The notes under the pieces are model-generated. The model was not told the origin of the DNA. It saw only the letters and a program-made list of their open reading frames with translations, and did no database searches. 64,000 nucleotides of DNA from Halobaculum gomorrense (GTDB lineage: Archaea > Halobacteriota > Halobacteria > Halobacteriales > Haloferacaceae), in assembly GCF_900129775.1 (NCBI RefSeq), contig NZ_FQWV01000002.1:62001-126000 (forward strand), given 5' to 3'. Numbering within the stretch: position 1 is the stretch's first letter; each line of letters begins with the position of its first letter. Both the position numbers and the translations under genes were made by a program. Below are positions 54,601-58,686 of the stretch, one piece after another.

Positions 54601-54675
54601 TCGAGAGATCCTGTACAAAGAAATCAGTGTCAGATCCGTATGCATTGAGACGACCAGTCTCAACTTTTGAAGATA

Positions 54676-55815
54676 ATGACTCCGAGTACGAGACGCGTTC
54701 TGCTGGTCGAGGATAACGACAGCGACGCGCAGTTGTACGCGGCAATGTTACAGGAGCTGCAGGCAGACACAGTCGACAATCCGACTGCGACTCCGACGGA
54801 CGTCGAGCGAGTCACAGCGCTCGAACCCGGGCTTGCAGAACTCGCCGACCGGGAGCAGACCTACGACGCCGTCCTGTTGGACCTGAACCTTCCCGACTCG
54901 ACGGGGCTGGAAACCGTCGACCGGGTTGTCGACGCCGACTCTGACGTCGCTATCGTCGTTCTCACCAGCGTCGGTGATCAACGCCTCGGTACCGAAGCCG
55001 TCGACAAGGGCGCACAGGACTTTCTGATCAAGGACCACGTCACGCCTCGGGTGCTGGCCAAGACCGTTACCTACGCGCAGACACGGAAGGCCCAGACGAA
55101 ACAAATCGAAAGGCAGCGAAACGAGCTGAGCGTCCTCAACTGGCTCATCCGCCACGAGATCAGAAACGACGCCTCGATCATCCTCGGCTGGGCGAGTGCG
55201 CTGGAGGCGGACTCTCCGAGCGAACAGCGCTCACTCGACCGTATCGAAGACGCCAGCAATCACATTGTGACCCTCACCGAGTCCGTCGGAGAGCTAATCA
55301 GCACACTCGAAGACGAGCGAACGGAACTCGACGCCGTTCGACTCGGCGCGGTACTGGACGCCGAAGTCACTCGTTTCAGAGAAAACTACGAGTCGGCGTC
55401 CGTCTCGCTCACTGGCGGTGTACCAGACGTGTCGGTGAAAGCCAACCAGTTCCTCGGAACAGTGGTACGGAACGTCCTGCTGAACGCCGTCGATCACAAC
55501 GACACCGATACTCCGAGCATCGAAATCGATATTCACCTCCCAGCCGCTGGTGACACCGATGCCGAAACGACAACGGCCGAGGGGGGTGCCGAGCAGGAGT
55601 ACGTATGGGTCGACATCGCGGATAACGGCCCAGGCATCCCTGCTGAGACGAAAGCAAGCGTGACGGAGAAAGCGTATTCGGGCGATGCAGACGGAACAGG
55701 AATCGGGTTGTATCTTGTAAACAAGTTTATGCAACAGTACGAGGGTGAGATTCGAATCGAGGACAACTCGCCCCGTGGGACGGTCGTCAAGCTCGGATTT
55801 ATTCCGGCTGCTTGA
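54676..55815 (+). CDS. REC-histidine kinase hybrid
   Basis: A 379-residue protein with an N-terminal receiver (residues 1-130; acidic pocket VEDNDSD, phospho-Asp69 in AVLLDLNLPDSTG, Lys in DFLIKDHVTP) and a kinase core. The HisKA-like region has the acceptor His in NWLIRHEIRNDASIIL, then N-box NVLLNAVDHND, G1 DIADNGPGIP and G2 GTGIGLYLV. There are no PAS or membrane domains. The receiver-before-kinase layout, common in haloarchaea, lets another kinase control it. It starts at the ATG 54676; upstream in-frame TTG is not needed. An 84-bp MITE lies between it and the next kinase gene. Confidence 0.92.
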   Translation: MTPSTRRVLLVEDNDSDAQLYAAMLQELQADTVDNPTATPTDVERVTALEPGLAELADREQTYDAVLLDLNLPDSTGLETVDRVVDADSDVAIVVLTSVGDQRLGTEAVDKGAQDFLIKDHVTPRVLAKTVTYAQTRKAQTKQIERQRNELSVLNWLIRHEIRNDASIILGWASALEADSPSEQRSLDRIEDASNHIVTLTESVGELISTLEDERTELDAVRLGAVLDAEVTRFRENYESASVSLTGGVPDVSVKANQFLGTVVRNVLLNAVDHNDTDTPSIEIDIHLPAAGDTDAETTTAEGGAEQEYVWVDIADNGPGIPAETKASVTEKAYSGDADGTGIGLYLVNKFMQQYEGEIRIEDNSPRGTVVKLGFIPAA

Positions 55816-55887
55816 TCCAAGCAGCGCGCTGTGTGAATGCTTACAGCCGACTCGGCGCGATGCCCCCGGCTAAAAAATATGCTGGAC

Positions 55888-55971
55888 TGATACTGTCGGC
55901 TATCGTCGCATGACGGATTTCGACACCCCGGGGTATGGAAAATCGTCACGTAGGTATAGCCGACAGTATCA
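55888..55971. mobile_element. 84-bp MITE with 16-bp perfect terminal inverted repeats
   Basis: The left end TGATACTGTCGGCTAT (55888-55903) and right end ATAGCCGACAGTATCA (55956-55971) are perfect inverted copies. Both are flanked by GGAC (55884-55887 and 55972-55975), a 4-bp target-site duplication. The 52-base interior has no coding capacity. This is the structure of a miniature inverted-repeat transposable element, moved by a transposase encoded elsewhere. It lies in the gap between two sensor kinase genes. Confidence 0.8.
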
Positions 55972-56082
55972 GGACGAGCATCGACTCTAACACATAGCCG
56001 ATGGAAGCAGGTTGGCCCAGTATCTCACGTGACTATTTGATGATAACTACTATACTGCACGCGAGCGTTGGCTGACGTATTC

Positions 56083-58686
56083 ATGACTGAGACGCCCGGG
56101 ACCTCAGTTCTGCACGTTGATGATGACCCTGCCCTCGCGGAGCTGACGGCTGAGATGCTCTCGGGACACAAGGCTCAGTTCACCGTCGAGACGGCAACAA
56201 ACGCCAGTGAGGGGAGAGATCGACTTGCCACACGTAGCTTCGACTGTATCGTGAGCGACTACGATATGCCCGGCCAGAACGGCATCGAGTTCCTCGAAAC
56301 CGTACGCGAGAAGCATCCCAACCTGCCGTTTATACTGTACACTGGGAAAGGGAGCGAAGCGGTTGCGAGCGACGCGATCGCTGCTGGTGTGACGGACTAC
56401 CTGCAAAAAGAATCCGGGACGAGCCAGTATACCGTCCTCGCGAACAAAATTCGCAACGCTGTCGAGAGATACCGCCAACAGGAGCGTGCCCAGGCGACTC
56501 GCGACCGGTTGCGCCAGATCATCGATTTGCTTCCACAGCTCGTCTTCGTCAAAGACGAGGGCGGCGAGTTCCTGCTGGCAAACGAGGCTACTGCCGAGGC
56601 GTACGGGACCACCGTCAGCGACCTCGAAGGAGCCACAGATGCCGACTTCGCCGACTCCGAGGCGGAAATCGAACAGTTCCGCGCCGATGACCAGGCCGTC
56701 ATCGAGTCCGGCGAGCCCAAACACGTTCCCGAGGAGTCGTTGACGACCGAAGACGGTGAAACACGGCTTTTGGAGACGACGAAGATTCCCTACGATCCGG
56801 TCGAGACGACCGGCGACGCCGTGCTCGGTATCTCGATGGATATTACCGAGCGTAAAGAGCGAGAAAACATGCTTCGGCGGTACCAGTATGCATTTGAGTC
56901 GGCTCTCAGCGGAATTGCGATAACTGATCTCGACGGCGAACTGATCGATGTGAACTCTGCGTTCGTTGACATGTGGGGGTACGACAGTACAGAGGATGCA
57001 ATCGGGCGTCCGGCCGTAAATATGTGGAAGCATCCCGAGCAGGCGCAGTCCGTACTGGAGACGATCATAGAACGGGGGCGTCGGGAGGACGAACTCGAAG
57101 CCCTCCGGGCGGACGGGTCGACGTTCTACGCCCGCGGGGTGAACAGCTACCTAACAGACAGCGACGGTGACCCAATCGGGGTGATAGCGTCCTTTTTCGA
57201 TATTACCGACCGCAAGGAACGGGAGGCCGAATTAGAACGGAAACAGGAGTTCCTCGAACAGACCCAGAACGTCGCAGACGTCGGCGGCTGGGAGCTTGAC
57301 CTCCGCACTGACTCACTCCGATGGACCGACGAAGTCTATCGGATTCACGGTGTTGGCCCGGAGTTTGAACCGACGGTCGAAGATGCACTCGCGTTTTACC
57401 ATCCCGAAGATCAGGCGGCAATCCGAGATGCCGTCGAGCGAGTGACAACTGCGGGCGAACCGTACGACTTGGAACTGCGAATCGTCACGGCCGACGACGA
57501 GGTGCGATGGGTCTCTACCCGTGGCGAGCCTCGGTACGAGGATGGTGAAATTGTCGGCGTCCGCGGCACGTTTCAGGACATCACCGAACGGATAGAACGC
57601 GAACAGGAACTGGAAGAAAAAACTGCAAAGCTGGACCAACTGGCAACCAAGTACGAACGCCAGTACCGAACGCTGTTCGAGGAAGCTCCAGTGATGACCG
57701 CACTCACCCGCCCCGAGAACGGCCAACCGATCATCGAGGACTGTAACAGCCAGTTCGCCGAGACCCTTGGATACGATGCGGAGGCAATGATCGGTCGTGG
57801 CCTCGCCGAGTTCTACACGCCCGAAGCGGCGGAAAGAATGCTGTCACAAGGGTACAGCCAGGCGCTCGACGGACAGTTCACCAGAGAAAAACGCGAGCTA
57901 CTAACTATGGATGGAGAGCGTATCGAAACGCTCCTGCGTGCGGTTCCGCGCCGGAGGGCCGACGGCGAGATCATCGGAACGCTAGCGATGTATATCGACA
58001 TCAGCGAACGTGAGTCGGTCAAGCGCGCGAACGAGCGGCTCGAGGAGTTCGCGAGCGTTGTCTCACATGATCTCCGGAACCCGCTAAACGTCGCCACCGG
58101 CCGACTTGAGTTGGTAGCTGAGGAGTGTGACAGTGACCACCTCAGCGATCTCGAAGCGGCGCTCGACAGGATGGAGACGCTGATCGATGATCTCCTGACG
58201 TTAGCCCGGGAGGGCAAAGACGTAACCGATGCTCAGCCGGTCGACCTCTCCACGGTGGTCAACGGATGCTGGGAGAACGTCGAGACGAACCAGGCACGCT
58301 TGATAACCGATATCGACCGAAACGTCTACGCCGACAAGAATCGCCTCAAGCAGGTCTTCGAGAACCTGTTTCGGAACAGTGTGGAACACGGCAGGGCAGA
58401 TGTGACTGTGACAGTTGGAAGACTAGATGACGGGTTCTACATCGAGGATGATGGTCCGGGAATTCCATCGGACGAGCGCGACACCGTCTTCGAGCCTGGC
58501 TACTCTCAGTCGACGGACGGAACGGGGTTCGGACTGAGTATCGTCAAGCGGATTATCACTGCCCACGGCTGGCAGATTCGTATTGCAGACGGAACCAACG
58601 GCGGAGCGCGCTTCGAGATCACGAACGTCGAGTTCGTAACTGTACAGGGCCCCCCGTCCAGTGCGGATCCAGCTGCAGACGAGTGA
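56083..58686 (+). CDS. REC-4xPAS sensor histidine kinase hybrid
   Basis: An 867-residue protein. REC occupies residues 1-125 (phospho-Asp59 in CIVSDYDMPGQNG, pocket HVDDDPA). Four PAS domains follow at about 145-260 (LLPQLVFVKDEGGEFLLANE), 270-385 (ESALSGIAITDLDGELIDVN), 395-510 (GGWELDLRTDSLRWTDEVYR) and 530-640 (EEAPVMTALTRPENGQPI). The HisKA His is in SVVSHDLRNPLNV and the ATP domain has FENLFRNSVEHG, EDDGPGIP and GTGFGLSIV. The kinase core is a close relative of the GAF kinase at 8.3-10.0 kb. The ATG at 56083 is preferred to an upstream TTG because it begins the receiver directly. A GC-rich hairpin follows the stop. Confidence 0.93.
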   Translation: MTETPGTSVLHVDDDPALAELTAEMLSGHKAQFTVETATNASEGRDRLATRSFDCIVSDYDMPGQNGIEFLETVREKHPNLPFILYTGKGSEAVASDAIAAGVTDYLQKESGTSQYTVLANKIRNAVERYRQQERAQATRDRLRQIIDLLPQLVFVKDEGGEFLLANEATAEAYGTTVSDLEGATDADFADSEAEIEQFRADDQAVIESGEPKHVPEESLTTEDGETRLLETTKIPYDPVETTGDAVLGISMDITERKERENMLRRYQYAFESALSGIAITDLDGELIDVNSAFVDMWGYDSTEDAIGRPAVNMWKHPEQAQSVLETIIERGRREDELEALRADGSTFYARGVNSYLTDSDGDPIGVIASFFDITDRKEREAELERKQEFLEQTQNVADVGGWELDLRTDSLRWTDEVYRIHGVGPEFEPTVEDALAFYHPEDQAAIRDAVERVTTAGEPYDLELRIVTADDEVRWVSTRGEPRYEDGEIVGVRGTFQDITERIEREQELEEKTAKLDQLATKYERQYRTLFEEAPVMTALTRPENGQPIIEDCNSQFAETLGYDAEAMIGRGLAEFYTPEAAERMLSQGYSQALDGQFTREKRELLTMDGERIETLLRAVPRRRADGEIIGTLAMYIDISERESVKRANERLEEFASVVSHDLRNPLNVATGRLELVAEECDSDHLSDLEAALDRMETLIDDLLTLAREGKDVTDAQPVDLSTVVNGCWENVETNQARLITDIDRNVYADKNRLKQVFENLFRNSVEHGRADVTVTVGRLDDGFYIEDDGPGIPSDERDTVFEPGYSQSTDGTGFGLSIVKRIITAHGWQIRIADGTNGGARFEITNVEFVTVQGPPSSADPAADE

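Follow-up and report, generated by a model that had tools for sequence, protein, structure and literature searches.

A near-palindrome between two kinase genes

The window analysed here, a stretch of 64,000 nucleotides from Halobaculum gomorrense (contig NZ_FQWV01000002.1), carries two ORFs for two-component signalling proteins on the same strand. Between them lies TGATACTGTCGGCTAT at positions 55888–55903, followed by its exact reverse complement at 55956–55971, with GGAC flanking the pair on either side. These letters and coordinates are exactly those of the original prediction, which had read the locus, correctly placed between two kinase genes, as an 84-bp miniature inverted-repeat transposable element (MITE) with perfect 16-bp ends and a 4-bp GGAC target duplication. 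The features of the locus, as interpreted below, are as follows.

54667–55815, + strand: upstream ORF, response-regulator receiver and histidine kinase, 382 amino acids
55884–55887, no strand: left GGAC flank, most likely a coincidence
55888–55971, no strand: 84-bp footprint, consisting of the 78-bp element and a 3-bp target triplet on each side (inverted repeat and match to covariance model R1)
55888–55890, + strand: left target triplet TGA, half of a decayed 3-bp duplication
55891–55968, no strand: mobile element proper, 78 bp, TACTGTCGGCTAT...ATAGCCGACAGTA (family-wide triplet identity and empty sites in relatives)
55891–55903, + strand: left terminal inverted repeat, 13 bp, perfect
55911–55948, no strand: middle stem, model columns 24–29 paired with 56–61
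55919–55940, no strand: apical hairpin, model columns 32–53, covarying in the family
55956–55968, − strand: right terminal inverted repeat, 13 bp, perfect
55969–55971, + strand: right target triplet TCA (an intact duplication would read TGA/TGA or TCA/TCA)
55972–55975, no strand: right GGAC flank, most likely a coincidence
56068–58686, + strand: downstream ORF, receiver, PAS repeats and histidine kinase, 872 amino acids, with an ATG at 56083

Even with three mismatches allowed, the 16-mer occurs in the window as just this pair, compared with an average of 0.16 occurrences in shuffled sequence (1 of 100 shuffles gets to two). The inverted repeat extends through the whole interval, with two 43-nt arms that are 77% complementary meeting without a spacer over 86 bp, and the element is a near-palindrome over its entire 84 bp. 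Folding of the strand gave z-scores of −6.5 as DNA and −7.2 as RNA relative to dinucleotide shuffles (0 of 200 shuffles in each case), with an RNA fold of −48 kcal/mol. The covariance model R1, described below, scores positions 55888–55971 at 81.7 bits on the + strand and 73.6 bits on the − strand. Rfam has no match within positions 55600–56300. The two mismatches that part the middle stem from the apical hairpin (columns 30/55 and 31/54) recur in other members of the family.

Two further observations concern the sequence itself. One of the three frames is open from end to end on both strands, in the window copy (55888–55971) as in the family, with the peptide [H/D]TVGY..DTPG..YSRQY in two translated copies, and the net insertion amounts to 81 bp, a multiple of three. 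Separately, a second short repeat with a small hairpin, CCGTATGCATTGAGACGACCAGTCTCAACTT, lies at 54640–54666, just 5' of the ORF that begins at 54667, and has at least three further copies in the same genome (loci L373, L374 and L375).

A dispersed family in the class Halobacteria

The original prediction had proposed seeking the 16-bp end in haloarchaeal genomes; the search recovered it, with at most one mismatch, in 84 of 391 genomes of the class Halobacteria. At the same threshold, two genomes hold it in large numbers, with forward and reverse counts of 68 and 66 in G030 and of 57 and 55 in Halobellus salinus JCM 14359 (G048); a reversed-pattern control gave zero in both. Searching named haloarchaeal genomes with a pattern of fixed length yielded 90 stretches, and among the 80 matches listed the hosts were Haloarcula, Halobellus, Halostella, Halorhabdus, Halomicrobium, Natrarchaeobius, Salinibaculum and other genera. 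The covariance model, built on 37 non-redundant copies, extended the family, at an E-value of 1e-4 or better, to 185 of the 391 genomes, which represent 52 of the 86 genera (these E-values are rough; 11 candidates were scored per genome, the two strands of one copy counting as two matches). Length is nearly uniform, with 121 of 129 copies measuring exactly 84 bp including the triplets. Copies are also present on haloarchaeal plasmids, and a search of plasmid and phage records produced none that was convincing in phages.

Within H. gomorrense the model identifies the window copy and two more diverged copies, and the 16-mer at up to two mismatches returns, besides the window copy, weak single sites only. 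Among ten other genomes of the genus a single one (G087) has a model match. The original prediction had held that a repeat without another copy would rather be an operator pair or a hairpin; by that standard the lack of a close copy of the 16-mer in its own genome counts against a MITE, but the copies across the class, together with the two relatives at home, overturn this argument.

Three copies stand out in their surroundings. At L098:7045–7128 in Natrarchaeobius chitinivorans, a normal copy is accompanied by a variant that equals it in length but has other ends (TACGGTCTGCTATGA) and possibly represents a sister family. At L104:2880–3317, half an element continues from its centre into what appears by eye to be a TnpB-type (IS605-like) gene-like region, which suggests an insertion into the centre of the palindrome. 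Finally, the copy at L010, around 1501–1584, has an inverted repeat around it (CTAATCCCTA / TAGGGATTA) and occupies its centre, which gives the impression of an insertion into a different palindrome.

A three-base-pair target duplication

The outermost triplets within the 84 bp are identical on the left and right in 118 of 129 copies, far above the 60.3 ± 5.5 (maximum 79) obtained with shuffles, and divide into 62 TCA/TCA and 56 TGA/TGA pairs; the remaining 11 include three TGA/TCA combinations, the state of the window copy. In a later set of 35 copies the triplets agree in 28, among them TAA/TAA twice and TTA/TTA once. Outside the triplets, C precedes the target in 78 of 129 copies and G follows it in 88 of 129.

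Filled and empty sites in relatives corroborate this boundary. At a Haloarcula site, compared among loci on the plus strand, relatives without the element read CGC-TCA-GTGG, while L196 and L197 read CGC-TCA-[78 bp]-TCA-GTGG; the empty loci carry TCA (L200–L203) or TTA (L208), and the sequence beside the site is changed or realigned in L199 and in the more distant L210, L214 and L217. At the L017 site, likewise in Haloarcula, L313 and L314 are filled and L315 is empty with a single TCA, other relatives being too diverged beside the site for a clean comparison. Taken together, the triplet identity and the two empty sites indicate that the element is 78 bp long (consensus TACTGTYGGCT...AGCCRACAGTA) and that the duplication is a 3-bp TNA, mostly TSA, with C-TSA-G as the preferred target. 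The 16-bp arms of the window copy are thus a perfect inverted repeat, as originally described, but 3 bp of each belong to the target triplet and the true ends measure 13 bp. The MITE-type reading itself holds: members of the family are short, lack a transposase gene, are terminally inverted, generate a duplication of fixed length (3 bp), and occur as many dispersed copies with insertion polymorphism.

A covarying inner hairpin

In the 37-row alignment, a structure comprising the terminal stem, the middle stem and the apical hairpin is paired in 85.2% of cells, and 20 of 30 pairs are altered on both sides, values that none of 500 shuffles attains on any of five measures (the structure was drawn from the alignment on which it was scored, the shuffles ignore relatedness, and the copies were oriented by likeness to one reference). 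Shared descent may account for part of this signal. Sliding the partners against each other reduces pairing to 31–44%. The terminal pair 15/70 is G-C in 27 copies and A-T in 10 with no failures, and the apical pair 36/49 appears as C-G in 17, G-C in 9 and A-T in 3. Besides the two mismatches between the middle stem and the apical hairpin, a third, 19/66, is recurrent in the family.

Search for the mobilising transposase

Duplicating 3 bp at TNA implies that the target is cut with a stagger, and this signature, together with the published description of the IS1031 group, suggests that the mobilising enzyme may be an IS5/IS1031-like DDE transposase. The original prediction had also called for autonomous elements with the same ends, and none was found among the loci examined. 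The 21 DDE_Tnp_1 matches in G030 and H. salinus, at 21 loci, are not flanked by these ends; those that are repeated proved, from a terminal-repeat search and their copy boundaries, to be other insertion sequences with other ends. In 12 further genomes, 30 loci drawn from many DDE_Tnp_1 matches yielded no end pair with a TNA duplication. DDE_Tnp_1 genes are present in all 14 element-bearing genomes searched (2 of 2 and 12 of 12), the examined loci being without these ends, and DDE_Tnp_4 gave no match in 12 element-bearing genomes. One pair of genomes is useful for tracing the enzyme: the relatives G068 and G272 have identical top model bit scores, but 20 and 2 DDE_Tnp_1 matches, respectively, and one of the two in G272 has five internal stops. 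That G272 carries such copies with two DDE_Tnp_1 matches argues against this Pfam family as the sole source.

Searches based on the ends gave several candidates that were rejected. A scan for end pairs spaced 400–3500 bp apart and sharing the same TNA (231 sequences, 1.16 Mb) returned five, each of which consists of two complete copies and not of a single long element; the ORFs between the paired copies in L061, L131 and L135 include none recognisable by eye as a transposase. A candidate parent in L182/L184, where GGCCGACAGTA adjoins one end, failed because that sequence is absent from the relative L184, and in L012 a half element whose partner lies far off, for a total of 1004 bp, spans an ORF that looks by eye like an aminotransferase and not a transposase. 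In five plasmid neighbourhoods no transposase adjoins a half copy, and 49 viral contigs with the 16-mer contain no paired copy of element length.

These results, together with the inner hairpin, bring a real rival into play. In this reading no DDE transposase is involved, and the foldback travels in single-stranded, folded form under an enzyme that reads hairpins, of the HUH/Y1 type or another, in a REP/RAYT-like fashion or in the manner of the short mobile repeats (SMRs) of Haloquadratum. A plain terminal-repeat substrate would have no need of the three recurrent mismatches or of a covarying apical stem, and the latter counts against the DDE reading; no transposase bearing these terminal repeats emerged from the loci examined, and the mobilisation of the Haloquadratum SMRs is termed enigmatic in the portion of their description available to us (PMC3119063). 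The clean 3-bp duplication at two empty sites, in contrast, is the mark of staggered double-strand cutting, and both IS200/IS605-type and SMR insertions are described in the same portion as lacking a duplication (PMC3119063). On balance we consider a hairpin-reading enzyme unlikely, while regarding it as the strongest competitor to transposition by staggered cutting.

Placement at the 3' ends of genes

Among 126 copies with long flanks, 47 lie on a predicted stop codon, 68 are intergenic and 11 are inside genes, according to a rough home-made gene caller with a coding fraction of 0.76, which under-calls genes. Reduced to 123 unique sites, the copies comprise 44 on a stop codon, 27 within 100 bp 3' of a gene, 41 at other intergenic positions and 11 inside genes, compared with 23, 25, 110 and 180 in the same classes for 338 unoccupied CTSAG control sites (the copies were sampled through the element pattern, and H. 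salinus is over-represented). Stop codons and the 100 bp beyond genes thus accommodate 71 of 123 copies but only 48 of 338 controls. Gene interiors are avoided (p = 1e-19), and stops are enriched among non-coding sites (p = 7e-6, with 1e-4 as the weakest value); both results hold at three gene-score cut-offs. Within the 3'-proximal class the preference for the stop codon itself is not significant (44:27 versus 23:25, p = 0.14, range 0.09–0.23). In H. gomorrense the first bases of both other copies coincide with the TGA that closes the upstream ORF, and G222, a relative, has its gene end at that position with the element absent. In-frame insertion into genes, as in the Rickettsia elements, was also considered: 16 copies fall inside rough gene calls, 7 with an open frame and 9 with a stop, and since most of the 16 are near uncertain gene starts we make no such claim.

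This placement raises the question of whether the repeat could be a selected RNA feature, a dispersed 3'-end hairpin kept at gene ends as an mRNA stabiliser or processing site. The stability of the fold, the covariation of the arms, the 3'-end bias and the two copies seated on stop codons would all fit. Yet presence is patchy even within the genus, copies are young in the high-copy genomes, the window copy lies 72 bp past the stop, Rfam offers no match, and selective loss of insertions elsewhere would give an equal bias. Maintenance as a selected RNA feature is, in our view, an improbable explanation.

The window copy and its GGAC flanks

Located 72 bp 3' of the stop codon of the receiver/histidine-kinase ORF and 96 bp 5' of the next ORF, the window copy is not a stop-codon insertion. 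Its flanks have no orthologous locus in the ten other genomes of the genus and hence offer no empty site. Its TGA/TCA triplets are best understood as a decayed 3-bp duplication: the copy would have been inserted as TGA/TGA or TCA/TCA, with one base changing afterwards. This makes GGAC most likely a coincidence. The reading of the locus as an 84-bp MITE whose ends measure 16 bp and whose 4-bp duplication is real draws on the identical tetranucleotides outside a perfect repeat; in the family at large, the 4 bp outside the 84 bp match in only 3 of 129 copies (one of the three being the window copy), where mismatched pairs predict 1.2, and the duplication that the family does make is 3 bp long and lies inside the 84 bp. 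A chance match is moreover made easier by the left GAC, since each of its letters is the commonest one in the family at that distance to the left of the target. A true GGAC duplication is therefore very improbable. That the repeat is a local operator pair or a chance palindrome, as its uniqueness in the window and the weak single sites in its own genome might have suggested, has a negligible likelihood given whole-element relatives in 185 of 391 genomes of the class and twice in the same genome.

Most probably, then, the window copy is an old member of a class-wide, non-autonomous foldback (MITE-type) family of 78 bp, for which a transposase acting in trans makes cuts staggered by 3 bp at C-TNA-G. 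The element is a palindrome with near-perfect ends of at least 13 bp and a conserved inner hairpin; its target is mostly C-TSA-G, and every insertion duplicates the TNA. TNA covers the stop codons TGA and TAA, so that insertion into a stop codon spares the gene, and copies build up at 3' ends. The data above establish the footprint of mobility, the duplication with its length, the target preference, the spread in copy number, the joint evolution of the arms and the bias to 3' ends; the DDE type of the enzyme and the history of the window copy are inferred. The only effect of the window copy today is probably the strong hairpin that it sets between the two kinase genes. A bolder version, which we hold only tentatively and think rather unlikely, is that folding of the inner hairpin is required for the element's movement or for its being tolerated, that the enzyme carrying it belongs to a type so far not associated with elements like this, and that the element is steered to 3' ends where the TNA rebuilds the stop, making it a mobile 3'-end hairpin that spares genes and has maybe been adopted as part of 3' untranslated regions.

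The search for a parent should accordingly be guided by the 3-bp TNA and not by GGAC. More broadly, these results define a family of mobile repeats carried by about half the haloarchaeal genomes in the sample, and they offer a clear case for testing by what means foldbacks of such small size move and for what reason they collect at gene ends. In a high-copy genome such as that of H. salinus, each copy puts a strong hairpin into a transcript end or an intergenic region.

Comparison with known systems

We found no description of the family in the literature searched, which lay mostly outside subscription papers and ISfinder. Its ends and duplication can be compared with those of the IS1031 group of the IS5 family, which, in the part of the source available, is stated to insert at TNA and to generate a repeat of exclusively 3 bp, the example given showing TGA (PMC12016507). 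The 3-bp TNA duplication, TGA included, is shared; the end sequence differs from the single example compared, and no haloarchaeal member of that group with these ends was found among the loci examined.

ISH2 of Halobacterium resembles the family in being haloarchaeal, without a transposase and moved in trans, but it is a MITE of ISH8 with a known parent and a 10-bp duplication, as far as the accessible text goes (PMC10264941), and is about 520 bp long, according to an excerpt of another source (PMC3119063).

The bacterial RUP, Correia/NEMIS, ERIC and RPE elements are likewise foldbacks of about 100 bp with terminal repeats, strong RNA hairpins and intergenic scatter, and some bacterial palindromic MITEs also keep a frame open through the element. 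Judged by the description in the accessible sections (PMC2229807), RUP inserts at TA and most of these elements end in TA, whereas the present family duplicates TNA and is haloarchaeal.

The closest parallels in host and appearance are the MITEs and SMRs of Haloquadratum walsbyi, which, from the available part of their description (PMC3119063), are short (for the SMRs 80–110 bp overall; SMR-A about 110 bp, SMR-B such as HqIRS41 80 bp), non-coding and present in many copies with prominent inverted ends. The SMRs are reported to have no target duplication and to insert into other mobile elements. The present family departs from the SMR definition by duplicating its 3-bp TNA target, and it sits at the 3' ends of genes; this separation is one of descriptions, and identity with HqIRS40–43 or HqIRS55 is possible. 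We class the element as MITE-type and its family as a new one of haloarchaea.
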